A stretch of DNA of 64,000 nucleotides from Gracilaria domingensis (lineage: Eukaryota; Rhodophyta; Florideophyceae; Gracilariales; Gracilariaceae). Under the pieces are notes generated by a model that saw only the letters and a program-made list of their open reading frames with translations, was not told where the DNA came from and did not search any database. Shown here piece by piece: positions 20,714 to 52,824 of this stretch. Position 1 is the first letter of the stretch, and every line of letters starts with the position of its first letter. The stretch spans positions 62,001 to 126,000 of the forward strand of contig VCMS01000195.1 in the NCBI GenBank assembly GCA_022539475.1, read 5' to 3'. The position numbers and the translations under genes were made by a program.

Positions 20714-21874
20714 ATGGGAAGAGGAAGGAAGAGGTATCGATGGGAAATATCGATGTGCGCGAAGCACCCATTCAATGACTCAGAACAAGTGCTGGAAGAA
20801 GAGGCACCATCCATTGAGGGATACACAGCTCTAAACGCTCATTCTGATCTGCCTACAAACAGAAGCAATGAAAGAGCTAGAAGTACAGATTTTGGGGCAA
20901 GAGCGGATTCGGTACAGATCAGCGATCTAGCTGTTCAGTATGAGAGTGATGCGGAGATCTCGCTACATGCAGCAGTTCACAATGAGCACTTTGAGCGTTC
21001 TCTAATTCCATGTATCCGCGATGAAAATGAACCAAATGATGTACATTCACATAATGATGAAAACGAACAAGACAATCTTGTCGACGATTCGTCAAGCATA
21101 GGGCAAATTTCAGTAGTGCCTGGAAGCCTTGCTTCAAATATTTGATCGTTTGATTGCGCCGAATCCCCTCTTTCCCACTTTTCAAGTACTTCTCACGAGG
21201 AAGGGTCAGAACGACAAGTTGAGTACAAACGACTGGCTGCATTCTTGTACAACGCAGAAGTTTCCAATGTCTTACAAAATGGGATACAGAGGTTATTGAA
21301 TATACCCCCAATGCAGTCCAACACTTCATATAGAGCCCTAATTTCGTACGCAGTACAGAAGGCACACATTGAGAAATCATACCTCAGAATGTGCCCTCAA
21401 GGCCATGTGGCTCACGCCGGAAAACTGCGATCTACACGAGAATGTCCAAGCTGCAAGAGTCCGCTTGCTGCGAGCATACATAAGTTTTGGTTTTTGAAAC
21501 CATCATCGGCATTGAAAGCACTTTGTCGCGCTCGTCATTCATTTGAAGAAATAATGTATGGGTGTCTGAGAGCAAAGGAATCTTTGGCGCACCATCCGTT
21601 CGATGTTCGAGACCATGATTATTACCATTGCGAAATGTTCCTCCGACAACATGGCCAACGCCTTGAAGAGTGGAATGCAGAAAGTAATGAGATTTTCGTC
21701 TTTCTGTCGTCTGTGTTCTGCAAAGTGGAATATAGTCTGTTCGCTTTGGAAACTAAGCTAGTTTTGGGGCTATTTGGGGCGCGCGAGGGGGTGGCAGAGG
21801 CTGGCACTCTAAAAATTAAGAAATTTTGGAGTATTAAATTCCATTTCGTGCAGTTTAGTTCTTGGGTCCCCTAG
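20714..21874 (+). pseudogene. Tnp2-like (CACTA/EnSpm-type) transposase, N-terminal fragment
   Basis: One reading frame with a single TGA at 21143-21145. The first 143 codons have a basic start and an acidic, Ser/Asn-rich stretch. After the stop comes a segment typical of the region before the catalytic core of Tnp2-type transposases: helices, then a zinc-ribbon-like set CPQGH...ECPSCKSPL, then FWFLKPSSALKAL. The catalytic region is absent and the frame runs into unrelated sequence near 21780. The family call rests on the Cys pattern and the order of these segments. Confidence 0.5.
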
Positions 21875-24906: not shown

Positions 24907-25809
24907 ATGAACTCCCAGTCCGACATGCCTCCGACTCCGCCTCCGAGTCCCAGATACTCTGACTTCCCTCAGGCATCATCTCCCACCCGAAGGACTAGGG
25001 CCGTTATTGTTGGAAGGGGGCGTATAGGTACCATGCTGGCGAACGAAGAAGATATGGTCATTTCCGCACACGAATTCTGCAGCATGGCTGCTACCTCTCA
25101 TCTTTCTGATGTATCGATACTAGTTTGTGGAAGAACGAGCACCCTGGAGAGCGTAATTCAGGCTTGCCCTTATTCGCTCAGAGAGAATCTCGTTTTCTTC
25201 CAGAATGGAGACATCATACCATTGGTTTCGAAGCTCGGTGTGGACAAATGTTCAAAAGTTGTCCTATACGTTGGTGTCCCCTCAAGAAACGCAGCTCCGC
25301 AGGATGGTGTCACTCCTGAAAATCCAGATGGTCTCACTGTCGCAACAGGAAAGTGGGCCTCCAACGTTGCAGACAGGTTTAGGTCTATGGGTCTCACTTG
25401 CGGGGTTGTCGACGAAGACACATTTCTCGTAAGCTATTATGAGAAGCTCGTGTGGCTATCAGCGTTCAACATCGTCGGGGCCTCAAGAGGTTTCATTCCC
25501 ATGGACGTAGTCGCTACGGAGTGCAGTACGGTTGTGCTCACAATAATGAAAGAGCTGTTGAAGATAGTTTCGCTTAAGACAGGTACTACTTTCAACCTGG
25601 AAGAGACCGTTGGGCGACTTCTTGCATATGGGAAAACTCTCGTTGGCTTCCCTACTTCTTTCTCCGACTTTCAGTTTAGGAACGCGTACTTCTACGACTT
25701 TTCCCGCCAAGAAAGAAACATCGTAGGCGGTGACCCCGCTCCTTTTCATACAAACTACGTCAACGTTGTTAAGGAAAATTTATCCCCCTCCCCATTCCCC
25801 CAGCTTTGA
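24907..25809 (+). CDS. Ketopantoate reductase (PanE/ApbA)-like oxidoreductase, left copy
   Basis: An intact 300-codon frame. After a Pro/Ser-rich leader the Rossmann motif appears: RAVIVGRGRIGTMLA (GxGxxG, residues 36-41). FFQNGD matches the QNG motif of ketopantoate reductases, and EKLVWLSAFNIVGA matches the conserved Lys/Asn helix of the C-terminal domain. PanE reduces ketopantoate to pantoate with NADPH; the substrate here could differ because the enzyme is diverged. It lies next to the epimerase, divergently. The inverted copy also keeps an intact frame, unlike its neighbours. Confidence 0.6.
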   Translation: MNSQSDMPPTPPPSPRYSDFPQASSPTRRTRAVIVGRGRIGTMLANEEDMVISAHEFCSMAATSHLSDVSILVCGRTSTLESVIQACPYSLRENLVFFQNGDIIPLVSKLGVDKCSKVVLYVGVPSRNAAPQDGVTPENPDGLTVATGKWASNVADRFRSMGLTCGVVDEDTFLVSYYEKLVWLSAFNIVGASRGFIPMDVVATECSTVVLTIMKELLKIVSLKTGTTFNLEETVGRLLAYGKTLVGFPTSFSDFQFRNAYFYDFSRQERNIVGGDPAPFHTNYVNVVKENLSPSPFPQL

Positions 25810-26434
25810 GGTTAGAACACATGACTTTTCGGTGTTGTAAACCTTTTAGAGATAGTTAAACATAAAAGTTACTCTATCGAAATGACCTGTTCCTATTACA
25901 TTAGTTATATGTTCGTCCTTCTGTGGTTCAAATATGCCACTTTAAATCCTACATCCCTTATCACTAATACCTGGCTAAGTTTTTCCTAGATGGAAAAGGG
26001 TCATTCCACATCATTAAAGTGCACGATACTAGTAAGGAAACAAGTACAAAATTGTGATATTTCTGAAGAGCTAAGCCTTTGCAATACTTGGGGCACCCGT
26101 ATAAAGTAAGGTAAACCTTTTATGAGTTTCAACCCTTAATGGAGGTTGTTTTACTGATCTTGATTTCTAAGCTCATGTTGAAGATATTCATAGTTTTCTT
26201 TACCCACTTGAACCCGTACATATAATTTATGACTAAATCATCCTTTTTTTACTGCAAATCGATGCAAAAGCTTCTCGTCGTAGTAACGTTTTAAAACAGT
26301 ACTACAATACCCGCATATGGTCGTTCTTAGACTCTTTTTATACTACGAAACACCTTGTGAACATCAATCACATCCTTCTCATTCGTATACCCACACCCAT
26401 TTGCAAAACGAACCCTTTCGAAATCTTTCAAAAC
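25810..26434. other. Intergenic AT-rich region
   Basis: About 0.6 kb, repeated inverted at 43082-43708. No gene, RNA or clear regulatory motif was identified beyond general AT-richness. Confidence 0.4.
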
Positions 26435-27299
26435 ATGTATAACTCAGAAGTTAGAGCCCAAGAAGTAACTCCTCAGCAGCTGGCTAACGAAATATTCGAA
26501 AATGGCTACGCCGTGATTAGTGATATTGACGGTACTCTGAAAAGAGCTGGGGAGAACATTCCTGCCGAAACAGTCAAATGCATGAAGTACATCAATGCAC
26601 GCGTTGGTTTCGGAATTGCTACTGGGCGAGATATAGAGGATGCCGAGAGTTTCATGGAGCACCTGGGTGGCTACACTTTTGGAATCTCTGGAAACCAAGG
26701 CGCACGGGTGAGATTATCCAATGGTACCGAAATTGATCAGGACCTTGACAGGGAAGGCTACGAAAGATGTGCAGCCGAGACTTGCACTCTCCTTAAATGA
26801 ATCGCACGGACTTCACGAAGAGCGTCAACAAGCAGTTGTGAGCACTAGAAAAGACAGTGGACTCCCTAACTTCACGTACAATGGACTGTCGAAGTGGAAA
26901 ACAGAAGTTAACTCCGGTATTTCAAAAGTGTTGACATCCTTTCCGAACCTGGTTGCGTACCCTCAAGATGAAAACTGTGACATAGGGGACATTCGTTTCA
27001 CGAAAAACAGTGGGGCGCTAGCCTTGGTTGAAATCGACCCCCAGTTCGACACACATTTAATCGTTGCTTTCGGGAAGGCTTCCAATGATGGCCCTCTATA
27101 TGAAATGGCAACCCTGGCAGTTCATGTGAAGGAAGACGACCCTCCAGCAGCGGTAACATATTTTGTTGATGGGGTGGAGGACGTGCATGAGACCATCAGA
27201 AGGATGGCAGAACTGTACGGGTACAGAAAATGCGAGTGTCAATGGTTTAGAAATGCTCTTGGAATTTGTTTCAAGTGCTACGATGCCTGTAATACTTAG
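26435..27299 (+). pseudogene. HAD-superfamily phosphatase-like protein, frameshifted by a short deletion
   Basis: The first part shows the HAD nucleophile motif VISDIDGTL, then IPAETVKCMKYI and IATGRD (motif II), as in Cof-type or sucrose-phosphatase-like HADs. Near 26786, eight bases present in the inverted copy (ACTTGAGA) are missing. This ends the first frame at 26800; the rest continues from there in another frame and holds FGKASNDGPL, the usual acidic loop with the first Asp missing. The ATG at 26435 is preferred over an upstream GTG. A paralogue lies convergently 52 bp downstream. The substrate is unknown. Confidence 0.6.
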
Positions 27300-27351: not shown

Positions 27352-28263
27352 TTATGATTCATGGTGGTTTTTATCGTGCTGCTTTTTTTCGTAGCCGTAC
27401 AACAGAGCCACCAGCATAATTGTCGAATGTACATCCTCCACGCTTTCGAACAGGTTGTGTACTCCACCCGGGATACAATCTTCTTTGACGTGAACGCCGT
27501 ACACGCCTACCTCATGCAAAGGCCTGTCGCTCAAAGCACTTCCGAACGTCACGACGTCATCCGTATCAATAAATCTCGGTTCATTATCCACAAGATTTGC
27601 TCCTCCGCTTCCTTTTGTGTATCGCTTGTCCACACTTTCGCGACTTTTATCCCCGGGATAGATAACAAACGCATCCATCTTCTGCAACAGGTCCCCAATA
27701 GCAGAATCCACTTCTTCTCTCCACTGCCACAGTTTGTTGTACACGAAATTGGGAAGGCCACTATCACTTCTGGTCTCCACGAACCCCTTCTCATCATCAT
27801 TCACAATACCATGCCTCCTATTCAAATCCCTTGCCAGGAACAGTAGTCCGTCAACAGTGTGGTCAAGGGTGTGATCATTGAATGCAGCCTTAATTTCCCT
27901 CTCGTCAGAGAAACGGAGGAAAGCTCCATGACTCGCCGAGACACCAAACTTATAGTCTCCGAGTCCTTCCATTTTCCCCTCCACGTCGCCCACATCACCC
28001 CCTGTGACAAGTCTAAAACCAACACGTTCGTCAATGAACTTCATACACTTCACAACTTCTTCTGGAATTGACTCTCCTTCTCTTCTCAACGTTCCATCAA
28101 CGGAACTTAATATACCGTAACCATTGGCATATATGAACTTAGAAAAGGTATTGGGTGAAATTTCCGCCAAGTCTCTCTGTTCCTCAGCCATTTTTCCTGA
28201 TACAGTCACCATACTGCCACAAGTACCGCATAGACAGGAATTGCATAGACTTCTCAGTTTCAT
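27352..28263 (-). CDS. HAD-like protein lacking the nucleophile aspartate
   Basis: An intact 303-codon paralogue of the neighbouring HAD-like gene, convergent with it. The motif that should read DxDGT is SSVDGTL here, so the catalytic nucleophile is Ser. The second motif TGGD and the late FGSALSDRPL loop are also altered. Length and secondary layout match the paralogue (shared SDSGLPNFVYN against KDSGLPNFTYN). It begins with a Cys-rich leader. It is probably catalytically dead and might have a binding or regulatory role. Confidence 0.55.
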   Translation of the reverse strand: MKLRSLCNSCLCGTCGSMVTVSGKMAEEQRDLAEISPNTFSKFIYANGYGILSSVDGTLRREGESIPEEVVKCMKFIDERVGFRLVTGGDVGDVEGKMEGLGDYKFGVSASHGAFLRFSDEREIKAAFNDHTLDHTVDGLLFLARDLNRRHGIVNDDEKGFVETRSDSGLPNFVYNKLWQWREEVDSAIGDLLQKMDAFVIYPGDKSRESVDKRYTKGSGGANLVDNEPRFIDTDDVVTFGSALSDRPLHEVGVYGVHVKEDCIPGGVHNLFESVEDVHSTIMLVALLYGYEKKQHDKNHHES

Positions 28264-28527: not shown

Positions 28528-29240
28528 TCATCTACTTCGAGGCGCTCGCAGCCTCATTTTTGGCAAATCGTCATCACTACTAATCTCGAGCGCTTCGGTT
28601 CTACCGGCCTCCGCTTCCACACCAATCTCCACGACCACTTGGTCTTCTTCCATGTCAACCGCCCCACCCTCCTTATCGGACAACAGTTCATCCTCCGCCT
28701 CCTCCTCCTCGTCACCATTGACAAACGTGGGTCGGAAATCCCGCACCCGATGAACAGCATCAGGTAGTGCGTAGCCCTCTGGTACCATGTACATGTGGTA
28801 TCTAACCAGCAAATCCATAGACTCGGGCCTATCCACCTTGTCCTTCCCACTTGCTCCAGCATGTGTCACATCACCACGGCCCACGAATACAGAGTACGGT
28901 GGGATGATTATATTCTTCGCTGGATACACCTCCGACATCACTCGCAACTGTTGGTTGTTCATCCCCACCAGTTGATGGCTTCCAGCGCTCACCCAGAGAG
29001 GGAAGCCCTCTTTCCCAGAGGCCATTACAAAGTATCCGGGGTTACCAGTATTCATTGTTTCCTTCCTAACCAGACCACTGAAGTCGGTGTGCAGCGTCTG
29101 GCGCTTGCACTTTCTCCTCGTCCCCAGAAATCGACCACCAGTTTTCGGAGTGTACATCTTCACAGCTTCCCTTTCATTGTCCCATAGTCCCAAAGCCGCA
29201 GCAATTGTACCCATTCGAATATCAAGTAAAGCACGCGACC
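28528..29240 (-). pseudogene. 2-oxoglutarate/Fe(II) dioxygenase domain, C-terminal part of the ParB-like protein
   Basis: The frame beginning at 29415 becomes meaningful from about 29240 (ALLDIRMGTIAAALG). It then shows the double-stranded beta-helix iron ligands: H109 and D111 in LHTDFSG, the distal H185 in GRGDVTHAG, and R205 in RYHMYM as the likely 2-oxoglutarate anchor (numbered from the 29415 ATG). The domain's opening helix, ELRQNGYCVLDGFA, is encoded in the preceding frame, so one added or lost base near 29230 splits the domain. The acidic tail ends with LEISSDDDLPKMRL. Substrate unknown; nucleic acid, protein or a small molecule are all possible. Confidence 0.6.
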
Positions 29241-31648
29241 TTACAACCCACCTTCTGTTCCTCCCCTTTCCGTATATCCGGCATCGCTCCATACTCATTC
29301 TCGAAGAAGTCCACCAACTTCCCCGACACATCTCCGAACTCCCGAACTTCTTCCAACTCCTCCCATTTAGGGACACCATTATCCGTCGCAAAGCCATCAA
29401 GCACGCAATATCCATTCTGCCTTAGCTCAGCTTGCATTCGGGCGAAGAACATTTGCCCAAATTCGGCATGCTTTTTCGCAGCAACCCACAGCACCTCTTC
29501 ATCATCCATACCTGTCGGCCGAGTACGAGGATACTGCATACCAAATTTCTCCGCCCGTAGGCGATGTTCATCCCTTGCAGCATGCCAAAAGACAAGATGG
29601 TGTACATGTCTGAGATTCGAGACACTTAGCAGCTCCGACCTATGTCCCTTCGGCAAGTGAATGACTCTGACCCAGGGGTCCTTGTGCTCAATTACGTTCT
29701 TCCCTTGCCATTTCTGCGGTCTCAGGCTGACATACCCGCACCATGATGGGTTCGGTGGGCCATCATATGGGTCTCCTCGAACAAGTCCGTGCTCCTCAGA
29801 TTCCGGAAGAGCTGTAGGTAACTCGTCATCAAATGAACCCCCACCTGTCTCTTGCTGATCGTCTGGCGCAGCATCTTTCTCGACGGTGACAACCCGTGGA
29901 ACTGTCACAGCAAGAAGCTCTTCGTCATCCACAAATGCAGAACTGCCTGCGTTCTCTGCATTCGCTCCCTCTTCCAATGCCACGAACTGAACCTTCATGG
30001 ACCTTCCTCTCAGCACATGTTCATTTAGTTGAGACATCAGGTCATCCGGTGTCATGCTGTTTAGAGTAGATCTCATCTGTTGTGTGAAAGTCTTTCTCCG
30101 ATTCTTCCTCCGCGGAGCCCGCTGTTCTTCTTCAGAGCTATCCAGAACTTCTATGGCACCTCGATTTCGGCCGTGCTCAATTTCCCTATAACTCACCTGC
30201 GCCCGTTCTCGTGCACTTCTTCGCGGCTCCCCTTCTTCACTGGCAGATGTTGCAGCAGCAGCAGCGGGAGTCCTCCTCTTCGTCACGGACTGCTTCACTG
30301 GTGCGGGGGGCAGAATTACCTTGAGCATCGTCCGCAATCGATTCTGAACGGAATTCGTGGCAGTTCTAATTGAGTTCGTCCTGCTCCGAACACGCGGCAA
30401 TGTGTTGAAGTTCACAACTTGTCCCAAAAGGAACTGATTCACAGCTGCGTTGTTGTCTGGGTCTTCGACGTCATCTTCATTCGATGGAGCAGACAGACTG
30501 ATTTCGCGTTTCAGGAACACTTCCATCGACTCTTCCTCGTTCAGTTCATTCCTCACTGCTCGAGCCGGGCGGAACAGAGACACTGCTCTATCATAAAAGA
30601 AACCTCGAACCTCCTCAAAGCTTTTCCATTGCTTCGTCTTCGTCGACTTGCCCTTCAATAGAAACATCTGAAGACAATCAAGAATGAAGGAAAACTCCTC
30701 GGCATCCAAAACATATAGCGGAGTATGGGACAGATGTGTGAGACCTATGTCACTCACACTCTCACATATCTCCTCGAAATGGGCCAGCATTTCCTCACGA
30801 GACATGAGTTGCAGGGCGACATTGGCATATCTCAGATACTGACGCTCTTGCACAGTCCCAATCAGTTGGCTCTCCTTCAACACTTCTGTCACTTCTGCAG
30901 GATCCACGTCTGCTGGCGTCACCCCCTCAACATTTTCAATTAGAATGGCGACCACACTAACTATAGAGTGTATCTTGCCTGCAAACATCATCCTTCGCAT
31001 GGTACTCGTCGACTCATTGAGGTACGAAGCAACACATAACAATTCCTTCATCCCAATGGGCCTCTCATCTCTTCGTATCAGCAGATTGCAACGCCAAAAC
31101 CTGGCTAATCGCTTCCACTTCTCTGCACCAGTCGCTGCCAAATATTGTATAGCTTTCAGACGATGCAAACCATCTACAATGAAGCACTTCTTCGTTAGGC
31201 GTCCCTTGTCAATATCCCTGTCTCCCGTAGTAGCATCTTGTAAGGCCACCACTGGAGAACCCATCGACTGCAATATCCCCCGCTCCTCCATACTCTTCAC
31301 AAGGGCTTCAACGTGGCGTTTACTTACTCCACGGAGTAAATTGGGCGGAGTGTCCACCAGAGTGATGTCAACAGTAACAACAACCATCCGGTAGTAATTG
31401 AGGTTCAACTTTGGTACCTTCTGACGAATTCGTCTGTACGTCTTGCTCCGAGTAGGTGTCCCTTGTGTTCCAGACCGCTCGCCAGAAACACTTGAACGTG
31501 CCATTCTTGCGGACAGAAGCACAACGTCATCGTCCTGCTGCTCCGCAGTTTCTGGTGCAGTTTGGGGTGCAGATGGACCAGCTCCTTGTGCGGATTGCGC
31601 ATGCGCATCCGCGTCTGGAAGGGGACCTTTTATGAACTCATCTTCCTC
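29222..31648 (-). pseudogene. ParB/sulfiredoxin-like domain protein, central part
   Basis: The frame opens right after TAA 31649-31651; its first internal ATG is at 31522. Counting from that ATG, residues 51-150 form a ParB-like N-terminal domain: a hydrophobic strand (VVVTVDITLVD), helices (RHVEALVKSMEERGI), then the signature DGLHRLKA at 117-124 (family pattern D/E-G-x-x-R-x-x-A). ParB folds bind or cut DNA and in CTP-dependent members act as clamps. A helical region follows, then a long acidic and basic low-complexity linker (about 330-560). The last about 60 residues start the dioxygenase domain. No eukaryotic ParB protein with this layout is known to me. Confidence 0.6.
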
Positions 31649-32326
31649 TTATTGCACAGCCGTCCCGTGCTGAACCGTCTGTTTCGACGCAGAAGATCCC
31701 CTTGTGTCGACGGTCTGATTCATCGCAGGAGATGCCCTTTTCGACGCAGTGGGCTTCGTAGCGGAGGTAGACTTTGTTTGACCTGTCCGCTTCGTAGCTG
31801 GGGATGATCTCGTCTCCATAGACCGCTTCGTAACAGACGAAGGACCTGCCCGCGGAGGTGCTACTGATGCGCCACCTCTCGGTGTTGATGAACTTCGAAT
31901 TGGCTTCGTGCGGCTTGTCGGCGTCATCACCTCACTCATAGCGCTCACCGTTCGTCGCTTGGACGCCGGAATGCTGGCTGCCACCGGTTCCATCATTTTC
32001 TCATCCCAAAGAGCGGCCGTCCGGAGATCCTGGATGTATTGTGGAAGATCCAGGCCCTCCGCCCGGTAAGGGTAGAACGTGTGACCGCTTCGACTGATGA
32101 GAATATTATGAACCACCACAAGACCTGGGTCCAATTGCTTCCCGTTCAACTCGCGGCGTAGAACACTTCCAATTCCATGCAACAACGCTTCCCCGACTAT
32201 CACCTTTCCTTCATTCTCAATATCCATCTGCAGAGAAACCCGCATTCCACCTTGCAATGATCGAGTGCTCCGCCGAGTGCGAGGAGTCATGCTTTGCGTA
32301 CGCTTTCGAACACGAGTTGGCTTCAT
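31649..32326 (-). pseudogene. N-terminal part of the ParB-dioxygenase protein
   Basis: A 225-codon frame from the ATG at 32326, in the same frame as the ParB ORF and separated from it only by TAA 31649-31651 (a CAA codon changed by one transition would restore the frame). A basic start (RKRTQSMTPRTRRSTRS) is followed by a folded-looking stretch (EALLHGIGSVLRRELNGK...VVVHNILI) and a Ser/Thr/Lys/Arg-rich tail with repeated ATKRT/SATKPT-like units. Taken together 32326-28528 would encode about 1,260 residues. The promoter should lie in the inverted repeat that starts at about 32395. Confidence 0.5.
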
Positions 32327-32394
32327 GTTGAACAGCTATTGCAGTGAAAGGTGTATATCAACAATACGCTCGCTCTGGACGATACAAGAACGGA

Positions 32395-33305
32395 GGCGAG
32401 CCTTTAAATGGCGACTTACGCTGGGCACCCCCGCTTTCGGCGGCTCCTCCCAGCGCAATGCCAATCTCGTCCGTGTCCTGTCCGTGGCCGCTCACACGCT
32501 GATTGTACGCTTTAGAGTCGTAGAGTTCGCGCAATGATGACTCACGCGAGCAATGGTCGCGCTCTTTAATCGTGCTCTTCAAATGCTTTGCATAGTAGTC
32601 AAGAGTACACTCAGTCACTTTCATGTACCGCCTACTCCCGCCAATACACGTGGACAGCGGCGCCAACGTACCGGCGGCCGGGTGTAGCGAAATCACTGCG
32701 GGGCGGCGTGTTTTGGGAGGTCCCGGGAAGGCGCCGGAATGTGACCAGAACGTGCCCGCGGGCGGGGGGGGTCGGTCGTGTTAGGGTAGGTACCCTAACA
32801 CGACCGGACCCCCCGCCCGCGGGCATAAAATCGCACATTTTTCAAAAAATCGCCCAAAACGTGCCCGCGGGCGGGGGGGTCCGGTCGTGTTAGGGTACCT
32901 ACCCTAACACGACCGACCCCCCGCCCGCGGGCACGTTCTGGCCACATTCCGGCGCCTTCCGGAGACCTCCCAAAACACTCCTCCCGGCACTTCCGGCAGT
33001 GATTTCGCTGCACACGCCGTGCACATATATCAAACTAGAAAAAACTAGCGCTTCACATTCACTTGGTCCGCGACTATTAGCACAATACGCGACCTTTGCA
33101 ATACCTCCGAATCGCGACGTGGCTGACACGCGACGCTATCGCACCCGCTCGAAGCGGCACGGACACCCACCTCAGAAGGGACTCCCGCTCGGAGCGGACA
33201 CGGACACGGATGAGACTGGCAGTGCGCTGGGAGGGCTGCCGAGAGCGGGGGTGCCCAGCGTAAGTCGCCATTTAAAGGCTCGCCTCCGTTGTTTGCGGTG
33301 AAGCG
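32395..33305. repeat. Imperfect inverted repeat between the two divergent gene tracts
   Basis: The outer arms match as GGAGGCGAGCCTTTAAATGG (32395-32414) and its complement at about 33275-33297, continuing through about 90 bp ending in CCGTGTCC-like sequence. The middle of each arm differs. The inner arms match again from GCGAAATCACTGC through GTTTTGGGAGGT and GGCGCCGGAATGTG to the central palindromes. Each gene tract thus begins with nearly the same upstream sequence in mirror image. This could be a bidirectional promoter or the head-to-head junction of two element ends. TTTAAA lies about 75 bp before one ATG and about 20 bp before the other. Confidence 0.75.
32757..32938. repeat. Telomere-like palindromes, two units
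   Basis: Two palindromes with core GTGTTAGGGTA-GG-TACCCTAACAC (32778-32801) and GTGTTAGGGTA-CC-TACCCTAACAC (32887-32910), 109 bp apart. Each is flanked by G-rich/C-rich arms (CCCGCGGGCGGGGGGG and complement), giving stems of up to about 30 bp. The spacer is AT-rich with CACATTTTT and AAAAAATCG. The two central dinucleotides, GG and CC, show that the units face opposite ways. The arms could form hairpins, and the G-runs could form quadruplexes. Confidence 0.85.
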
Positions 33306-34666
33306 ATGGATTCCACCGATGATGGAGGGGAGATACATCCTATCGACATGAGTGCTCCGCCTCGGGCGTTCCATGCATATGTCAGACTTTTCTTGGTTCT
33401 TCGCGATGCTTTGGCAAACAGCGATGGAGGCCCTGATCGGCCACGGGACGTGGGGTTTAGAGGGCTAATAGAGTTCTGCGCCGAGAACTATAAGGATATT
33501 CCGGAGGCAAGGAAGATGTTTGAGGAGGCCATTAACTCCAAGAACCTGCAGAACTTGACACTGCAACAGCTGCGAAAGAGTGTTGTGAATAACAAACCTG
33601 TGGAACAACGATATCTTGTAACGAAGCTTCTTGACAAGAAGAACGGGGATGAGGACCAGAGACTCCGCGATTTTTTCTTCTCTCTATGGATATGGGTGTA
33701 TACCTACCGGTGCGATGCCTGGTTGGTTATTTCATGACCAGGAGAAAGCAGGTTCTGAAGACGACAGTGTTCATCCCACCAACAGCTGTGAACCCATTTG
33801 AGGTCGTTATATACTTATCATACCTCGGCCATATAATGGGAGAGAACGACAACATCAGAATGATGAAGAAAAAACAACCGAAAAAGAAACGAAAAGTGAA
33901 CCATGCACCATCTGTGTACATACCCACTTTTACGTCGTTCTTCAAAGACAACTGTGATCGACTGGGATTCGCTATCAGTGAGGTCGTATGGGCATGGAGT
34001 TGTTTTGCGGCTCATCTTGGATACACGAACGTTCAGCACATGGTGAAACCATACATTTACATGAATATGCAGACGTTGAAGTATACAGCGCTAGAGACAC
34101 GGGAGTCTGGTTATGCCCCGCCGAGCCAGAGTACTCGATTCAACACACAGGATGTGGCACAGAGCAGTACTAGTGGATCGGTGGAGACCTTGAGTGATGA
34201 ATGCGATACAAACCTCCGAATACTGGCTAAGGAATTTTTGACAGACCTCGAAACCATATGCACCCACGATAGCCTCTATAGCTTACGGGCTGATCAGATG
34301 AGGAACTAGATAGAGTTTTCGGGGATACGGATGGATACCGTATCTGGTTCTGACTCCGGTGAGTTGCCTGCACGATTTCAGAACTTTTCGGAGCTGCTAT
34401 GGAAACCGATACAGGATATGCGTCATGCGGCAGGGTTCAATGTGGGCATTCACGCGAAACCCGATATTGAACTGACGAAAACTCCTAAAACTTCCGGTAA
34501 TGCCGAACCTTCTTCGACCAAGTCTGCCCCAGCCCCACCTCGTCGAGAGTATATAGATCTCGTGAGCTCCGACGGCGACGACTTCGAGAAGGCAGTGAAT
34601 CGTGCGGTGCATGAATCTCGGGTTGCCGGGTACAACATCCAAAGACTGGTATTGAGCCGCCCATGA
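33306..34666 (+). pseudogene. N-terminal part of the methyltransferase-SET tract, function unknown
   Basis: The ATG at 33306 lies a few bases after the inverted repeat. The frame runs to 33737, shifts near 33710 into the frame 33686-34309, has one stop (TAG 34307-34309) and continues in the same frame to 34666. The encoded sequence is mostly helical with basic KKKQPKKKRKVN (SV40-like nuclear signal) and an acidic DLVSSDGDD segment. No domain was recognised. A decayed version of the first about 200 bp is present at 50105-50330. Confidence 0.5.
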
Positions 34667-35713
34667 AGGGGATATCCAGTCTTCTTCGAATGAATATGGA
34701 CAAGGTGTGGAAGGGGATGAGAAAGTCACACTTTGTAGCGTACAACTGTGACATGAAGGACCTGAGGCACACACACGAAACATTTGTGAATCAGAGTGAG
34801 ATTTTATGGGGTGAGGCACAGCTTGTCCTAACAGACCCTCCCTCTAACACTCGAAGGAAGAGAAGCAAACGGAAAAGTGCTCACGATGTCTTCAGTGAGG
34901 ATGACATGATCAGTACGGCTGACTTAATAAGTTCCGCGCTTCGGTCAGGTGGGCACTTCATTATATTCTGTGCCATGGCACAGTTTCATGTTTGGCACAG
35001 GATACTTTCGGAAACGGCGAGTACGAAAGATGAAGCTGGAAGCGAAGGTAAGCAAGAACTCATGCCTTCGTTTAAAGTGGATGGGAATCCACTGGTGTTC
35101 ATCCGGGATCGAAGTAATGTTGGAGGGAATCCACGGAGTTTAGGATACAGCCCGTAACGGAGTACGCCGTTCATGGGGTGAAGCGTGGATTGCGACCATC
35201 CGAGGAAGCCAGTCTTACTCCATTTGAGGAGAACAATTTCATTCCTTCTACTTTCTCGGCTAACAGGAATGTAATTGACCGGGTGCCAAAACCGAGAGCG
35301 GAGGAGTGGTTGACATGGAAGTTAATAAGCCAGGTAGTTCAGTATCAAGTAGGCAGTACATAAGACCGGAGCAGAAGTCCAGGGAGTTGATGAAAGAGTT
35401 GATATGTCGGTTCACAAGACCGGGTGATCTTGTCATGGACATGTTCGCGGGAACTTTTTCTACGGGTATGGCGTGCCTATCGCTGACAAAGCATAGGAAG
35501 TTCTTGGGGTGCGAGAAGAACAGGCCATGTTTCAGCCATGCGAAGCACCATGTAACGACTCTTATGGCCGAAGTTCTTCGCGAGGGGAAGAATGACATCG
35601 TGGTTGAACAGGAGGTGGTGGATGCTGCTTCAACGACTTATGAACGGGTTCCACATCGGGACCGAGGTCGGCTTGAATGGGAGGCTCCATTTGGATACCC
35701 CAGTACCAAGTGA
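34663..35713 (+). pseudogene. Beta-class N4/N6 DNA methyltransferase (bacterial type), frameshifted
   Basis: Three frames in succession carry one domain. 34663-35157: motif IV as TDPPSN (residues 57-62), where the family has DPPY/DPPF, then LRSGGHFIIFC. About 35105-35320 (another frame): FRIQPVTEYAVHGVKRG and SANRNVIDRV. 35306-35713: RPEQKSRELMKELICRF, then PGDLVMDMFAGTFSTG (motif I), and FLGCEKN. Motif IV before motif I, followed by the RPE...PGD signature, is the pfam01555 arrangement found in bacterial CcrM-type and other adenine-N6/cytosine-N4 enzymes. This differs from the eukaryotic 5-methylcytosine and MT-A70 families. At least two frameshifts and the DPPS change suggest the copy is inactive. 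Confidence 0.7.
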
Positions 35714-36436
35714 TGCCTGCACATATTACTCAGTTCTAGGAAGATACTGGAAGGACTGGGAGTTTGTCGACAAGTGTGGACAGCATACTGTAGATCTTTG
35801 GGACCAGAAGTACGGAGCAGCTCTGAATCTAATGGATATGCATATGCTGTTGACTGCTGAAGCCAATCGCTATCGCTTACATGTAGCATCTTCTAAGATT
35901 CGACATCCCGTGCTGGTATGGGGGTGTTCACGGAACATAAGATATTGGCTGGGGAAACTATCTGTCATTTTTATGGAACTTTAGTATACACGGATCTGAC
36001 GAACCGGAAGGAAAGACACTTAACGTATGGAAGTGGCTGTCTCGGAGCAACTTCAGTGCGGTACAAGTTGTTTTCTATGATGGTCACTGTGACTGGTACG
36101 GAGCTTCTGCACCTGAGGAACAGACCAGGACAGGCTCAGAATAGAAAGAAGAGCGAAGTGTACATTGTCCCGGCGCCTTTTTGTATCGGGGGCTACATTA
36201 ACGACGCCGGATATCATGCCGGGGATCGCGATTTATCGCAGCCCCGGTCAAACAGGACTCGAAGTGCTAATGTGCAGATGGTGGAAGCGAAGTCCGTGAT
36301 ACAGTTTAAGTCCGACCTTTCTAACTATGCTCTACTTCGTTGTAGAGCAGTAAGAGATATTGAGAGGGGCGAAGAGTTGTATTTCAACTACGGAGAGCAG
36401 TACGCCTGGGACTGGGCTCTGACATTGGAGCAATAG
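35690..36436 (+). pseudogene. SET-domain lysine methyltransferase region, joined to the DNA methyltransferase
   Basis: After a linker frame (to about 35920; DACTYYSVLGRYW...) the frame 35918-36436 encodes a SET domain: GVFTEHKILAGETICHFYG, then YINDAGYH with NVQMV (the substrate/cofactor loop, normally xxINHS/Nxx), then LRCRAVRDIERGEELYFNYGEQY (the GEEL..NY motif with the conserved Tyr). No post-SET Cys cluster. No stop separates methyltransferase from SET once the two frameshifts are allowed for, so the ancestral product was probably one protein. SET enzymes methylate lysines, commonly on histones; the target here is unknown. Confidence 0.65.
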
Positions 36437-36686
36437 ATGAGTTCAGTACCGAATAGAAAGTAAATATGCTTGTGAATGTTGCAGCTGCCTGCAATACGCG
36501 TTGTACATGTACACTGGAGCTCTTCATCTATTTGTAACGGCGATATTTGCGACCCATTGGGCACCTCAAATTCTTAAAAAGCAGGAACTGCGGAGTCTCC
36601 CGGAATATCTGAACCATGCACCCCCCCCCCCCTACCCCTCCCCCCCCCCAACAATTTCGTTTCATTACCCCGTTTATCTCCACAAC

Positions 36687-38960
36687 ATGGGTATAACGCC
36701 GAGAAAGCGAAATAGTACGCAGCGGAACAAGAGTGGACAGAAGAAGAGAAGAGCATCGGATGATACGAATCAGGCTACAAGCACCGCACTTCCTAAACGG
36801 AAGTCGTCCTCGACGAAGGAGAGAGTCAGTGGGCGTCATTCTACAGTACTCTCTCGCCCATCTCGCAGCGGAGCGTCTTCCGGGATTGCGTCAAGAATTC
36901 GTGGATCAGGGAACGATGTCGTGCCGTCAACTGCCGATAATGCAAATCGTGCATCTGTCTCTGCTCCTCAAGAAGATGAGGTAACTCGGCCAGCGGGTCA
37001 GGACAGGAGAGCATGACAACTGGAACTGAAGAGGTTCGTATGACACCAAAACCTTCATGTCCCCGGCCGATATCGAAGACCGGAGCTACTGGGGCGCAGG
37101 TTACGCCGCCCAGTGGGTCTGGACAACAAGGGACAATGACGAGAAGTCGTGAGAGCCCTAGTATATTAAGATCGTCACGTCCCTCCCTGTCTTCTAGAAC
37201 TGGGGCCGCTATGAATCGTATTATGCCTCGCAATGGGTCCGGACAAGGGAGAAAGACAATAAGAAATCGAGAGACAACTGATAGACGAGTTACTCCTCGA
37301 CCTTCCCCTCTTTCCAGAACGGGGGCCGTTGCAGCTCGTACGAGGCCCAATTCATCTGATATACGATGCCATGGAGGAGGACAGACACGGGAGTTGGAGC
37401 TCGGAGCCGTGCCAAGGGTGGACACAGAACGCCTGCAGCCTCTCGTGTCTAAGGGTATGGCACATGAGGATAGTTCCGATAACGAAATAACACCGAATCC
37501 TGCGGCATTACCGGGGCCTGTCGCCGAAGAGGCTAGGGAAATACCGGAAGATATCCACACTGGTGTGAATTCAACCTATATGAACAGACGTGATCTTTTA
37601 AATGAACTGAATTGCTTGAAAGAAAAGGTTAAGACGCTACAAGAGGACTTGATGGTTCGGAGAAGTCTAGTGAAGGTCGCCCAAGAGCAGAGTACGGCTT
37701 TGGAAAGAGGCTTGAAGAGAAGGATCTAGTCATTGAAGGGCTAAGAGGGGCACTGAAACAGGAGGGAGATAGGAGTACACGTGCTGGTGAACCTGGGCAG
37801 ACAGGTCGAAAGAAGCATAAAATTGAGGTGTGCGACGTGTTTCGAGGGGTTGCTCGAGCAGTGTATCACAACATGCTGACGTGGGCAAGGAGAGAAACAA
37901 GTGAGCTATGGCTCGAAGGTGAATCGCTCACCCGAAATTGGGGTAACCGTGCCGAGAAGGTGGAAGACGCAACTGAGAGTGGGGAAGGGCTTATTGAGCC
38001 GGAGGAGGGTGGTTCATACATGGTTCCTGAAAACCCCGTGGAGCTCTTGGGCAGTTTTGGCATGTTCACACCGTCGGTAGAGGGGGGCCAGATGCTTTGC
38101 TGAAGAAAATGGTTGAAAGCGAGTTGAAGGAGTTGAGCTGGGAAGGTATTAGAAAAGCATCTCTTACCGACAGGTGTATACTGGAACGTTGTGCAGATAT
38201 GTGCCTTAGGCAGAGAATGCGGCAGACCATGAGTGACGTCGTGGGCGTTCGGAAGAGAAATACGAGGGATAAACTATTTCTGCTCCTGGGGTACGATCTG
38301 ATTTGGAGAAGAACAAAGCTGGTAGAAGAGAATGCTGACGAATTCACAATGCAGTTGAAGGAAGCGCAGGAGAACATACTGCGTCTTGACGAAAATGGTG
38401 TACCGAACACTTCATGGTGGAGAAAAGCCCATTTGTTCGTCTAAGGTACTCCAATGCGGACAATATCAAGGATATGCCGACGGAAGATCAAGACTTGTTC
38501 TTCCAAACCGTGTCGGGGTACAAGTACTGAAGGAGTTTATTGGGTATGATGTGGAAGACAAGGATACGGGCACCTTTTTAGATGGCACAATACTGTTGCT
38601 CGCACGTTTGGACGCTTGGGTGTTGACGGTTGTGAGCCTTCTAAGTACGGATGTGTCAAGAGTGACCAGAGACAGAAACTGTTTACAAAAAGTTTGCCCA
38701 ACTGCTACCTCTGTTTTTAAAGAATGTTCTGGGGGATGTTAGGCAACGTGTTTTGAGGACCAATTCCAGCGAGTTTCATAATTTTGGAACGACAACGGAA
38801 GATTGGACTAAGGTTCTTGGTAATGACATGAGAGAGACTACATTTGGATATCGAATGCCGTCGAACGGAAGACTTTACCTCACTGTGAAAGAACAATTTT
38901 TTATTGAAAGTGTGAGCCGAAGATTGGGTTCTATTAGCGATTGTTTTCGTTGGTGAATGC
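36687..38960 (+). pseudogene. Basic repeat and coiled-coil protein, several frameshifts
   Basis: Begins MGITPRKRNSTQ at 36687. The frame shifts near 36980, continues 37013-37729, and then in pieces at 37828-38103, 38097-38444, 38386-38742 and 38753-38956. The N-terminal part is very basic. It holds tandem 40-residue units with the pattern SRTGA...GSGQ...R-x-RE, about two and a half copies. A coiled coil follows (DLLNELNCLKEKVKTLQEDL). The later pieces look helical. No known domain. Same strand and direction as the methyltransferase-SET tract, 250 bp after it. Confidence 0.45.
36960..37340 (+). repeat. 120-bp tandem repeats (40 codons)
   Basis: Two complete units (from GATGAQ and GAAMNR to SRT in each case) and a partial one before them. 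The unit length of 40 residues is exact in the two complete copies. They lie inside the basic coiled-coil protein and show that the frame was coding when they duplicated. Confidence 0.6.
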
Positions 38961-39039: not shown

Positions 39040-40800
39040 AAGGTGAACATGTAGAGAATGGAGCCCTTAATGTTTAAGGCTGTACCAAGATCAACGTGCT
39101 CAGTTGGTCCTTCATCTGAATCATGATAGAATCGATTGATGTAGAATCGGTGTTGAAACCATTGGAGTGGAGGACAAAAAGGTGAAGCAGGGTAGTTTGA
39201 TCGAACAACATGGACAGTCTCTATAGTGCAGAAGCCGGAACCATCCCGTACCAAGGAGTTAACTCTACGACAGTCTCCGCTTTGGAATGACGAGGGAACG
39301 GAAGAGTGTGGTTCTTTTCATCGTTTGTAGCCACCGTAAAGATATGCATTTCAATATGAGGTCGATGTTTGTTGCGGGGGTAAAACCTCGAAATACCGGA
39401 CAAATGCCACTCTGGTGCGGTAAGTGAAGAATCAAGGAGAGATATTCGAATCAGAGCGACTACCTGGGCAACCCAAGTCTCTGAATCTTCTCCGCTTACC
39501 AATACAGTAAAACTTTGGCTTTCTACTGGGACCAAATGCTGGAGAAGCGAAGACACGTTGGATGATGGGTATTTGGGTCGTCCAGCTTAAGTGCCTTAGA
39601 AGACGAATCGAAGTGTTCAAGAGTGGGAACGAAACCGCCTTTCACGAGGGCCGAATTCACCAGAGTCATCCTTGTCTTTTCTGAGAAGTATGTAATAGAG
39701 TGCTCATCCAGTGTTTCTTTCACGAGACTGAGGAAAGGAGGAAGGGCCTGTTCACCAATTTGGTCAAAATCGACCTTGTGTCCGTACTTGAGAACATCTC
39801 TCCAACAGCAGTCCATGTTTTGAACTGGACATACTTGAAACACAATGTTGAAGAGCTCGTAAAGTGAAAGAACGCCCTCTCATTGCAAACCGAGAAAGCT
39901 GTGTGGAAGTTCCTAGTAAACTGGATTACGCTGGTAAGGAGTATTGCCATTCCATTGCTTTCTAACATGTCCGTGCTCAATGGAGCGAATAGTCTCCTCC
40001 ACAGCCGTTGCTGTTCTTCTGGACGTCTTTTGTAGTGTCTCTTAAATAGCAGGTGTGCATTTCTATATGCCTGCGTCGTAGTACTTGATACTTCCCAGAC
40101 GGCGAATATCGTCCACGAGATGATCGAGAAGATGAAACTTCAGAGTTCCCAGTCTGGAGGGATGAAATCCGCCAGATTCTTTGTTGCGGAACGCTTGAAG
40201 GCTTCAATCTCCGAACTGAGACACAGGAGAGAGCTTTCAGTCCAATACGGGTCACGATTGTATCTGAATAAGGTCGAAAGCAAGTCCGAGTACTGAGAGA
40301 AAACGGTTGTGATTGGGGCAACGTCCTGTTCTCCACAGCATATGCAAAGAATGCTCCTATGAAGGGGAAGATCATGTCAAGTGTTTGTAGTTTTTTGGCC
40401 TCCAGCATTCTACGGAGACCGTCTTTCGTGAAGATACCATTCAAAGATTTGCCTTTCTCCTGCGGGAGAAATCGATATGTAAACTTTGGCAGGAGAATCG
40501 CGTTCTATGGCAGCTAGAATTGCGTTTGCATGGTTAGGAGTTGGGTGCGTATCGTTCGAAATGAACGCGATGCAGATGTTCCTATTGTGGTGCACAGGGT
40601 GTCTGACTGCAGTCTTCGATTATGGCGTTTTATCAAGCTTTGGATGCGAGATGCAAGTTGTTATGGGCTACGAATGAGAGCAGACTGTATGGAGGACAAT
40701 CCGGGATTATTCCAAGGCTTAACGGAAGTTTCGAGGACGAAGGAATGAGAGATATGGAATTGAACGCATCAGAGTATCCGCTTGAGATCTCTTGTTAAAT
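39040..40800 (-). pseudogene. Plavaka-type transposase, C-terminal remnant (copy 1)
   Basis: Minus-strand fragments 40410-40595, 39977-40444 and 39523-39843 look like parts of one gene split by frameshifts. Nucleotide similarity links about 40195-40795 to about 50721-51345, which directly follows the recognisable Plavaka transposase ORF of copy 2 on the same strand. The catalytic N-terminal half is missing here: unrelated sequence lies between 40.8 and 42.47 kb. No catalytic residue was assigned in the remnant. Confidence 0.5.
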
Positions 40801-42703: not shown

Positions 42704-43081
42704 TCATTCATTTAAGGAGAGTGCAAGTCTCTCAAGTTCGGCTGCACATCTTTCGTAACCTTCCCTGTCAAGGTCCTGATCAATTTCGGTACCATTGGAT
42801 AATCTCACCCGTGCGCCTTGGTTTCCAGAGATGCCAAAAGTGTAGCCACCCAGGTGCTCCATGAAACTCTCGGCATCCTCTATATCTCGCCCAGTAGCAA
42901 TTCCGAAACCAACGCGTGCGTTGATGTACTTCATGCATTTGACTGTTTCGGCAGGAATGTTCTCCCCAGCTCTTTTCAGAGTACCGTCAACATCACTAAT
43001 CACGGCGTAGCCATTTTCGAATATTTCGTTAGCCAGCTGCTGAGGAGTTACTTCTTGGGCTCTAACTTCCGAGTTATACAT
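42704..43081 (-). pseudogene. HAD-like gene, 5' half only (inverted copy)
   Basis: Codes for the first about 125 residues of the HAD-like protein with an intact VISDVDGTL nucleophile motif and IATGRD, then ends at the arm boundary (LALSLNE, stop). It retains the 8 bases lost from the left copy, so the left deletion is the derived state. The part with the acidic loop is absent. Confidence 0.65.
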
Positions 43082-43708
43082 GTTTTGAAAGCTTTCGAAA
43101 GGGTTCGTTTTGCAAATGGGTGTGGGTATACGAATGAGAAGGATGTGATTGATGTTCACAAGGTGTTTCGTAGTATAAAAAGAGTCTAAGAACGACCATA
43201 TACGGGTATTGTAGTACTGTTTTAAAACGTTACTAGGAGGAGAAGTTTTTGCATCGATTTGAAGTAAAGAAAGGATGATTTAGTCATAAATTATATGTAC
43301 GGGTTCAAGTGGGTAAAGAAAACTGTAAATATCTTTAACATGAGCTTAGAAATCAAGAAGAGTAAAACAACCTCCATTATGGGTTGAAACCCATAAAAGG
43401 TTTACCTTACTTTATACGGGTGCCCCAAGTAATGCAAACGCTTAGTTCTTCAGAAATATCACAATTTTTGTACTTGTTTCGTTACTAGTATCGCGCACTT
43501 TAATGATATGGAATGACCATTTTCTATCTAGCAAAATCTTAGCGAAGTATTAGTGATAACGGATGTAGGATTTAAAGGGGCATATTTGAACCACAGAAGG
43601 ACGAACAATATAAGTAATGTAATAGGAACAGGTCATTTCGATAAAGTAACTTTTATGTTTAACTATCTCTAAAAGGTTTACAACACCGAAAAGTCATGTG
43701 TTCTAACC

Positions 43709-44611
43709 TCAAAGCTGGGGGAATGGGGAGGGGGATAACTTTTCCTTAACAAAGTTGACGTAGTTTGTATGAAAAGGAGCGGGGTCACCGCCTACAATGT
43801 TTCTTTCTTGGCGGGAAAAGTCGTAGAAGTACGCGTTCCTAAACTGAAAGTCGGAGAAAGAAGTAGGGAAGCCAACGAGAGTTTTCCCATATGCAAGAAG
43901 TCGCCCAACGGTCTCTTCCAGGTTGAAAGTAGTACCTGTCTTAAGCGAAACTATCTTCAACAGCTCTTTCATTATTGTGAGCACAACCGTACTGCGCTCC
44001 GTAGCGACTACGTCCATAGGAATGAAACCTCTTGAGGCCCCGACGATGTTGAACGCTGATAGCCACACCAGCTTCTCATAATAGCTTACGAGAAATGTGT
44101 CTTCGTCGACAACCCCGCAAGTGAGACCCATAGACCTAAACCTGTCTGCAACGTTGGAGGCCCACTTTCCTGTTGCGACAGTGAGACCATCCGGACTTTG
44201 AGGAGTGACACCATCCTGCGGAGCTGCGTTTCTTGAGGGGACACCAACGTATAGGACAACTTTTGAACATTTGTCCACACCGAGCTTCGAAACCAATGGT
44301 ATGATGTCTCCATTCTGGAAGAAAACGAGATTCTCTCTGAGCGAATAAGGGCAAGCCTGAATTACGGTCTCCAGGGTGTTCGTTCTTCCACAAACTAGTA
44401 TCGGTACATCAGAAAGATGAGAGGTAGCAGCCATGCTGCAGAATTCGTGTGCGGAAATGACCGTATCTTCTTCGTTCGCCAGCATGGTACCTATACGCCC
44501 CCTTCCAACAATAACGGCCCGAGTCCTTCGGGCGGGAGATGAGGCCTGAGGGACGTCAGAGTATCTGGGACTCGGAGGCGGACTGGGAGGCATGTCGGAC
44601 TGGGAGTTCAT
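43709..44611 (-). CDS. Ketopantoate reductase (PanE/ApbA)-like oxidoreductase, right copy
   Basis: An intact 300-codon frame, about 96% identical in protein to 24907-25809. GRGRIG, QNGD and the KLVWLSAFNIVGA helix are all kept. Differences such as ECST/ERST, EN/QS and NVVKEN/NFVKEK are scattered. The upstream frame stays open to 44812, but the ATG at 44611 matches the left copy. Its divergent partner, the epimerase, is truncated on this side, so the upstream region is partly altered. Confidence 0.6.
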   Translation of the reverse strand: MNSQSDMPPSPPPSPRYSDVPQASSPARRTRAVIVGRGRIGTMLANEEDTVISAHEFCSMAATSHLSDVPILVCGRTNTLETVIQACPYSLRENLVFFQNGDIIPLVSKLGVDKCSKVVLYVGVPSRNAAPQDGVTPQSPDGLTVATGKWASNVADRFRSMGLTCGVVDEDTFLVSYYEKLVWLSAFNIVGASRGFIPMDVVATERSTVVLTIMKELLKIVSLKTGTTFNLEETVGRLLAYGKTLVGFPTSFSDFQFRNAYFYDFSRQERNIVGGDPAPFHTNYVNFVKEKLSPSPFPQL

Positions 44612-45004
44612 TGCAAGTGTTCGAATGTTTTTGTGTGACGATAGAAATGAAAGATGGGGCGGAGAACTGCTGGGGTAAAGAGTGATACTTAAGTACAAAC
44701 GGTTGGGAAGCGCAGAACGGGAACATGGTTCACTTTGTGAAAGTGAGCGAAATGTATGATATGTGATTGTACTGAATGAATGATAGGGCTTGTATGAGAC
44801 GACAAGCCACAAAGTGTGATGATGTTTTATGAAAGGTAGGTGGAAGAGTAGAAAGTGTGCAATGAATGAAACTGATTTCGAACCTGAGTTGTAAAGTAGT
44901 TGTAAAGTACGAGTTACGGGGAGCTTGAATACAGGATGAAAGGAGCCATTTTGGCTTCATAAATGACGTGAACGGGTTTTATAGCTTCACTCGGATTGCC
45001 ATAA

Positions 45005-45329
45005 TTAAAAGGATGGAGTTGGATTGCGCCCGAATACGTCTATAAAGGTCGTAGAAGCACTTATGAAGGAAGGAGTTGTAGACATGTTATTGTTGATGAC
45101 GGTGGAGCCAGGGTTTGGAGGACAGGCGTTTATGGAGGGTGTTCTTGATAAGGTGCGACATGCAAGGAAGTTGTACCCAAGAATAGGGATACAGGTGGAT
45201 GGAGGTATTGGACTGAGTACTGTGAAAGCAGTAGTGAAGGCCGGTGCAAACATTTCAGTTGCAGGATCTGCCATCTTTGGCTCGAGTAACCCAGCTCATG
45301 TCATAGCTGGTTTTCGAAAGGTTGGTTAG
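45005..45329 (+). pseudogene. Ribulose-phosphate 3-epimerase, C-terminal half only
   Basis: Carries TVEPGFGGQ and QVDGGI and ends as in the left copy. The N-terminal half, including the first catalytic Asp, is absent: sequence upstream of the gene (CGGATTGCCATAATT) joins directly to the middle of the reading frame. The joint deletes about 450 bp relative to the left arm. Cannot encode an active epimerase. Confidence 0.85.
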
Positions 45330-45379
45330 AGATAGTAGCATAAAATTATTGTTTATTACATTGTTACCTTTACGTGTTA

Positions 45380-45730
45380 TCACAACTAAATTCTCCGTCT
45401 CCATTGGAGATGTATTTCTCTTGTATCACAACCGGGAAAGGATGTGAGAGAACATCAATATATCCCCAGTGGACGCTGAGAGGGAGGGTGAACTACTGTA
45501 CGTACTATAACTACTACCCATCCCGTCTCCACTGGAGACGTATTCTTCTTTTGTCACAACCCACAAAGGATGTGACGGAAGAAGAACATGCCCCCAGTCG
45601 AGACAGAGGGTGAGCAACTCTAAGTACAATCACTAGTCCCTAGCTTGCCTCCACTGGCAATATCTTCCTCTTTTGCTATAACCATCGAGTGGGGTTATGG
45701 TGGAAGAGAAAAATATCGCCGGTCGAGGCG
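45380..45730. repeat. Array of three hairpin-forming modules (right copy)
   Basis: Counterpart of 23350-23690. The modules centre on TCACAACCGGG, GTCACAACCCAC and GCTATAACCATCG with their complements. Each is edged by TCTCCACTGGAGAC-like sequence. Confidence 0.55.
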
Positions 45731-46063
45731 AGGTGGGTGGGGATTATGTGAGCGCGAAAGAGGAGACAGAGAGGTGGCGCTCAAATAGTGGAAGGTGCGA
45801 AGGTGTACAGTAGATGTTTTGGCGGGAAATGGGATGAGGGAAACAGGGACAATCATGGTGCTGGATATAGCCCGTGTGGTTGGACAGTGGGGGTGGACAG
45901 CACAGTTTAGCTCGATTGCACTGTATCGCAGCGGAAACTTCGATCCAACTACTACTTCTTCTTCTGAAGATGTCGAACGGATACGTGAAGGATGAGGAGC
46001 TGTTGGCGCTGTTGGAGGGGAAGGAGGTACCGCAGACGCCGTCACCAAAGTGGGAAGAGGACG

Positions 46064-46114
46064 TGGGCCACCTGCTGCTCGTCGCTCAGTGAGCGACGAG
46101 CAGCAGGTGGCCCA
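46064..46114. repeat. 25-bp perfect inverted repeat with one-base spacer
   Basis: Arms 46064-46088 and 46090-46114 around a single G. The right arm is genuine SDR coding sequence (SDEQQVAQ); the left arm is its mirror image and joins directly onto the end of the inverted-repeat arm at 46062. Confidence 0.95.
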
Positions 46115-51592: not shown

Positions 51593-51599
51593 ACTCGAC

Positions 51600-52772: not shown

Positions 52773-52824
52773 GGGAAGAAGAAATGAACGGGAAACGACG
52801 ACAAAGACTTCAAGGGAAGGTCTT

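Follow-up and report, generated by a model that had tools for sequence, protein, structure and literature searches.

The stretch of DNA analysed here (the window) comprises 64,000 nucleotides of the red alga Gracilaria domingensis, positions 62001-126000 of contig G000:C195 in a genome of 77.9 Mb and 680 contigs. Its positions 28528-36436 hold two opposed genes, one for a ParB-like/2-oxoglutarate (2OG)-dioxygenase-like protein (ParB-2OG) on the minus strand and one for a beta-class amino-DNA-methyltransferase (MTase) continued by a SET domain (MTase-SET) on the plus strand. Both are broken. Open frames of 1,308 amino acids (aa) for ParB-2OG and of 1,055 aa for MTase-SET exist elsewhere in the same genome, which bears out the divergent pair that an initial annotation, made from the letters of the window alone, had recognised.

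The decayed ParB-2OG copy (28528-32335, minus strand) consists of a ParB-like domain, a helical part and a 2OG-like core, and is recovered as open reading frames (ORFs) 31522-29222 and 29415-28528 together with an N-terminal frame at 32326-31649. These pieces align to residues 1-1026 and 1068-1307 of the open 1,308-aa frame of locus L054, about 124 bp being missing near 29252, where the frame is broken. An intron of 124 bp was considered and rejected, since the 1,308-aa frames run uninterrupted across that stretch; the gap is therefore a deletion in the window copy. A check of the sequence places the motifs DGLHR at 31160-31174, HTD at 29083-29091, the later His at 28861-28863 and the Arg at 28801-28803, all on the minus strand. 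The decayed MTase-SET copy (33306-36436, plus strand) is split across eight overlapping ORFs and carries DPPS at 34834-34845, DMFAGTFSTG at 35438-35467 and the SET domain at 35918-36394. Pfam recognises N6_N4_Mtase (35306-35713, E 6.6e-12) and SET (35918-36436, E 3.8e-8) in this tract. DPPS as catalytic motif is shared with locus L007, while most other sampled copies have DPPF or DPPY.

Each gene is preceded by one of two mirror-image arms, 32386-32444 (minus strand) upstream of ParB-2OG and 33235-33293 (plus strand) upstream of MTase-SET, which are complementary at 56 of 59 positions. The initial annotation had seen this mirror symmetry, and it is more extended in six of the nine other loci of the same family (hereafter family B), where the arms reach about 100 nt at 95-98%. 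The central intergenic region contains two palindromes (32773-32806 and 32882-32915), each with 17-nt arms and at most one mismatch. Two to five long palindromes stand between the genes in six of seven readable family-B loci and one in the locus on contig C328; the loci on C50 and C211, whose intergenic stretch is a run of N, stand outside this count. For the palindrome half-site GGTCGTGTTAGGGTA the genome has 1099+1061 occurrences, for the reversed control 2+0.

The gene pair belongs to a family of DNA transposons whose terminal repeats read CGTCTGT... and whose transposase is that of Plavaka. Its common ends were found by comparing the nine other loci with the window: the terminal inverted repeat CGTCTGTSTYYTGCA stands at both ends of the family-B element, and the left repeat (CGTCTGTGTTCTGCA) is present in the window as an exact match at 21708-21722 (plus strand), a left end shared by other copies. 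With patterns longer than the repeat (21 bases for the left one), starting with each end's own version of it and allowing up to two mismatches, the genome-wide count came to 577 for left and 563 for right ends, and to none with the reversed-pattern controls. Pairing of the first 100 places in each list, with the last 12 right ends (one from C63, the others from C64-C69) excluded, gave 48 oriented left-right pairs shorter than 30 kb, which span 6.4-24.3 kb (median 13.8 kb), 12 of them falling between 10.1 and 10.9 kb. By extrapolation, some 570 copies at the median length would occupy roughly a tenth of the genome. A 2-bp target-site duplication (TSD) flanks 8 of the 12 elements examined, namely all eight short ones (10.2-10.8 kb) and none of the four long ones. 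One short element with a clean TSD (C8:197779-208117, 10.3 kb) arose by deletion: the MTase gene and most of ParB-2OG are gone, and three palindromes remain. The transposase was identified by PF18759 in family B (L024:4140-7439, E 1e-18) and in family A, described below (E 8.7e-24); in a genome-wide scan 123 of 672 candidates scored as matches, while none of 14 control genomes had any. The mobile-element setting put forward in the initial annotation is thus borne out by terminal repeats, ends and transposase, and its comparison with KDZ transposons is not, the carrier transposase being that of Plavaka.

Nine family-B loci were fetched on the basis of an MTase match, most of them because of their long open frames. 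In every one ParB-2OG lies, in whole or in part, divergent to MTase-SET; the side-by-side relatives that the initial annotation called for therefore exist. Co-occurrence was also counted over the genome by scoring the best 42 of 1566 ParB-2OG, 150 of 328 MTase and 150 of 311 SET candidates. Among the matches listed, 76 of 150 MTases are accompanied by SET and 76 of 141 SET matches have an MTase just upstream (the eight host-like SET rows and a ninth on C3 were left out), counts that carry little weight because only part of the candidates was scored.

The divergent layout is kept in three families, between which the identity of ParB-2OG is about 30%; families A and C are each represented by one ParB locus. 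A Plavaka transposase of its own is present in family A (L058 on C247; L060 and L061 on C12), together with an accessory ORF that by eye resembles that of family B. The family-A MTase has DPPY followed by a stretch that looks SET-like by eye, and the MTase piece, which ended early, gave no SET match in Pfam. Along about 690 residues the divergent ParB-2OG of family A is 28% identical to that of family B, a figure that rises to 46% in the catalytic core. In family C (L001, L062 on C6) Pfam finds the MTase and SET domains, and a divergent ParB gene with DGHHR was seen without its 2OG part. Palindromes of 76 and 46 nt in family A, and three with 76-85-nt arms (89-93% complementary) in family C, are unrelated in sequence to those of family B. 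Since unrelated sequences occupy the same position, it is the presence of the palindromes and not their letters that seems to be conserved, which suggests family-specific addresses.

For the MTase domain the profile evidence is direct. PF01555 is matched with E 1.7e-15 in family B and 4.6e-20 in family C, and the phage DNA methyltransferase family phrog_67 with E 9.3e-24 to 3.4e-26. The beta-class assignment is based on PF01555 and on the order DPPF/DPPY, then D-x-F/Y-x-G, in the relatives, the window copy having DPPS in place of the former. The nearest solved relatives, DpnA and CcrM, are both adenine-specific. SPPY is common to most bacterial N4-cytosine enzymes and DPPY is found in bacterial N6-adenine enzymes, according to the portion of PMC8885841 drawn on here; the occurrence of DPPF/DPPY rather than SPPY makes N6-adenine the likelier product. 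The SET domain passes the PF00856 cut-off in families B (E 1.4e-7) and C (E 8e-6). In the defence-system library nothing was found for ParB-2OG, and the matches listed for two MTase-SET proteins were nearly all to methyltransferase models.

The other two domains were assigned differently. The motif D-G-x-H-R is diagnostic for the ParB/sulfiredoxin-like domain, and it is present as DGLHR in family B, DGAHR in family A and DGHHR in family C. Three family-B copies give weak matches (E 0.0018-0.0085) to phrog_3264, a ParB-like partition family of PHROG. The putative 2OG core is outlined by HTD...H...R, of which HTD, the later His and R-YHMYM are kept in families A and B; a search of viral contigs with the 2OG core and with ParB-2OG returned no relatives. 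Of the four domains named in the initial annotation, MTase and SET were thus found by Pfam, while ParB and 2OG gave no Pfam match near the cut-off. Two failures is the number at which that annotation had proposed to give up its domain reading; we accept the ParB and 2OG assignments as probable on between-family conservation, not on Pfam.

Whereas at least 150 matches to PF01555 were obtained, none was found to PF00145 (C5-cytosine methyltransferase) in the host genome, where an intron-split gene could escape the search; 10 of 14 control genomes were positive. The lack of a C5-methyltransferase match makes it unlikely that the 2OG domain is a TET-like eraser of 5-methylcytosine (5mC). Eight of the 150 SET matches scored reach 50-98 bits, like host SET genes, and the remaining 142 reach 31-38 bits, like those of the element. 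Phycobilisome-linker matches number 14 in the genome, four on C680 (apparently plastid-like) and ten across eight other contigs, a pattern that among eukaryotes fits a red alga and, taken by itself, would also fit a glaucophyte.

We propose that the two tracts form a marking cassette, accessory to a giant Plavaka-type element of high copy number, which addresses itself through palindromes and writes or edits 6mA-type and histone marks; read from sequence, this proposal could in our judgement as well prove right as wrong. The two divergent genes would be co-expressed. The ParB-like domain would bind the palindromes as a parS-like address and bring the 2OG dioxygenase to element DNA, and the MTase-SET protein would write N6-methyladenine (6mA), as expected of a beta-class enzyme with DPPF/DPPY, together with a histone-lysine mark. 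The 2OG domain would most likely edit an N-methyl mark or some other methyl group on a base or protein, and not 5mC. Through the marks the element copies would be kept in a state of chromatin that promotes expression or transposition and escapes silencing, and short copies that have palindromes but lack the enzymes would be held in the same state. The suggestion of the initial annotation that the pair may write, erase or read marks controlling the element or its host silencing seems right to us, with the refinement that the host makes an erasing of 5mC improbable. A bolder version, that a eukaryotic transposon superfamily carries a complete addressable epigenetic system (parS-like palindromes, a ParB that steers a dioxygenase, an MTase-SET that co-writes DNA and histone marks, in a host without C5-methylation, with short derivatives sharing the mark in trans), is as a whole rather less likely to be true than false. 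If the enzymes work, the DNA modification of this alga may come largely from a transposon, which would write DNA and histone marks with a single protein; the palindromes allow a direct test of element-specific targeting.

Several observations weigh against the proposed cassette or parts of it. A divergent MTase or SET partner was found for only 18 of the 42 ParB-2OG matches, among the matches listed. The long elements on C50, C211, C164 and C18 (about 18.8-22.8 kb, two of them 19.0 kb) have no matching 2-bp TSD; they may be rearranged or mis-assembled, and clean insertion is demonstrated for the short class only, not for the full-length unit. The palindromes kept in a short copy may reflect a single deletion lineage, the copy on C8 being the sole short one read through in the comparison. 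PvuII, an N4-cytosine enzyme, is among the weak PDB matches of the MTase (E 0.083). Within the ParB region Pfam does no better than GmrSD_N (E 0.22; 12.1 bits, cut-off 33.2). For the family-C ParB piece neither Pfam nor PHROG gives a ParB match, and its single match among phage proteins has E 0.2. Pfam, PHROG and PDB sequences offer nothing credible for the 2OG region. Finally, the omega values of ParB-2OG between sampled family-B copies, 0.61-0.96, are near-neutral, in a range that includes comparisons with the decayed copy of the window and with a truncated copy on C171. ParB-2OG may thus be decaying within family B. Between open family-B copies MTase-SET has an omega of 0.21-0.43, and two comparisons of the transposase gave 0.25 and 0.64; all these counts are small. 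Short-term constraint can thus be seen in the methyltransferase, whereas the sampled copies of ParB-2OG show little or none; the conservation of ParB-2OG between families nevertheless argues for a function. Between L054 and the C328 copy, synonymous divergence (dS) is 0.185 in ParB-2OG residues 860-1240, 0.03-0.04 in the rest and 0.09 in the tail, as though copies had recombined.

The same enzymes could serve the opposite end, methylating DNA and histones in order to repress the element, either as copy-number control or by hiding it from ectopic recombination. The union of MTase and SET in one protein would suit such self-restraint, and in the part of PMC8885841 considered here amino-methylation is tied to H3K9 methylation that silences transposons in an animal without C5-methyltransferases. 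The fact that the genes belong to the element itself, which is very abundant, and that a 2OG domain next to the writer suggests editing besides writing, makes this explanation rather unlikely, with a minor but real chance of being correct.

A role in transposition chemistry is improbable. The MTase would mark strands or sites and thereby couple excision to replication, and the palindromes and the ParB-like protein would make a synapsis or partition site. Dam provides such a coupling for the bacterial elements IS10 and IS50, and both the intergenic position of the palindromes in each of the three families and the adenine specificity of the nearest solved MTases are in line with this scheme, which leaves the SET and 2OG domains unexplained and has to accommodate family-B palindromes that lie far from the ends of the element.

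That the genes are captured, idle cargo which merely hitchhikes, as the HAD ORFs described below may do, is in our view likewise improbable. The presence of HAD cargo ORFs, the ParB-2OG omega near 1 inside family B and the clean TSD of a derivative without the MTase gene would all be expected of passengers. They have to be set against the persistence of layout and motifs in three families at about 30% ParB-2OG identity, and against the low omega of MTase-SET in open copies. That the dioxygenase is a TET/JBP-type 5mC oxidase aimed at the cytosine methylation of its host, the role suggested for TET+ elements of fungi, is most unlikely. Fungal PlavakaB elements do carry TET/JBP (PMC12730594), but no PF00145 match was found in the present host, and the 2OG region has no match to TET/JBP or any other 2OG family in Pfam.

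Elements of the proposed marking cassette are known from other systems: ParB-MTase in algal transposons, SET in transposons and TET in Plavaka, as far as the consulted parts of the literature go. The algal Sola-1 giant DNA transposon also has a ParB-like domain and an N4C/N6A-type methyltransferase. Both domains of Sola-1 are in one 1104-aa protein, which the authors who described it, too, propose to bind to the transposon that encodes it and to modify it, whereas here they belong to two divergent genes of a Plavaka element, with 2OG-like and SET domains and intergenic palindromes in addition. The fungal TET+ Plavaka elements share the Plavaka transposase, a short TSD and a transposon-borne dioxygenase with the present element; they act on methylcytosine, the word 'ParB' is absent from the main text of PMC12730594, and the TET/JBP kinship is unsupported here by any profile match. 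Their ends (TGT..ACA or CATCA..TGATG in PlavakaA and PlavakaB, as given in that text) are not matched by CGTCTG..CAGACG of family B. HarbingerS and MuDR, DNA transposons that likewise carry SET, belong to other superfamilies, and the passage on them in PMC12730594 mentions no DNA methyltransferase. Bdelloid rotifers (PMC8885841, in the portion cited) lack C5-methyltransferases and, with N4CMT and amplified SETDB1, similarly link an amino-methyltransferase of bacterial type to histone methylation, but N4CMT is a host gene with SPPY and a chromodomain, unlike the element-borne SET fusion with DPPF/DPPY. The family-C protein is about 25% identical to the best-listed phage records of phrog_67 methyltransferases, with 47% of it covered. 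Giant repeats flanked by Plavaka occur in Amoebidium, according to the section of PMC11244446 seen. A literature search, whose scope did not extend to the Bostrychia paper (Petroll et al. 2025) and which is thus no proof that the arrangement is unpublished, did not find a divergent ParB-2OG/MTase-SET cassette with palindromes. The present case adds a split four-domain cassette with family-specific palindromes to a known kind of element, with a mechanism that we infer.

The remaining features of the window surround the gene pair. To its left lies a cargo ORF with a putative Rossmann-like GRGRIG motif recognised by eye (24907-25809, plus strand), whose homologue L013:1369-2451 has no match in Pfam, PHROG or NCBIfam. 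It is followed by a cargo HAD-IIB hydrolase broken into two frames (26357-27299, plus strand; homologue L013:2883-3950 with Hydrolase_3 E 1.3e-12 and TIGR01484 E 1.2e-10) and by a second HAD-like cargo ORF (27352-28263, minus strand; homologue L021:5070-6026, Hydrolase_3 E 6.2e-5). The weak matches of L013:2883-3950 include mannosyl-3-phosphoglycerate phosphatase models; mannosylglycerate is made by red algae, and this HAD ORF is possibly a captured osmolyte gene. To the right of the pair, the accessory ORF (36501-38947, plus strand; tblastn pieces 36651-38947), which is 834 aa long in L024 and broken in the window, has no Pfam match (L024:1636-4137), and a broken C-terminal remnant of the Plavaka transposase (39087-40735, minus strand) is recovered in tblastn pieces at 42-50%. 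Comparison of loci shows that 42706-46065 (minus strand) repeats a portion of the left half of the element in inverted orientation, as a rearranged second copy and not as a terminal inverted repeat. The inverted repeats 23077-26802/42706-45998 had been candidates for giant terminal repeats and were rejected, the left-part copy being inverted and the true ends short.

Another element fragment contains three palindromes (49230-49483, by palindrome scan) in a stretch similar to the central intergenic region, and transposase pieces at 50668-52895 (minus strand), of which the N-terminal one (51624-52895) matches at 96%. In the region 50668-53888 these pieces abut ORF 52890-53888, which by its translation resembles an ATP-dependent DNA ligase. 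Retrotransposon polyprotein-like ORFs, with integrase and reverse transcriptase motifs by eye, lie at 1-4425 and 9677-11146. At the other end of the window, ORFs 55565-57499 (minus strand) and 61576-63057 (plus strand) have an identical N-terminal stretch (MYGQWTSVRELSIWGYRVS...) and begin inside the inverted repeats 56982-58106 and 60968-62093, which are 98% identical over 1126 nt; one of the two ORFs is tyrosine recombinase-like by eye, and possibly they represent another mobile family.

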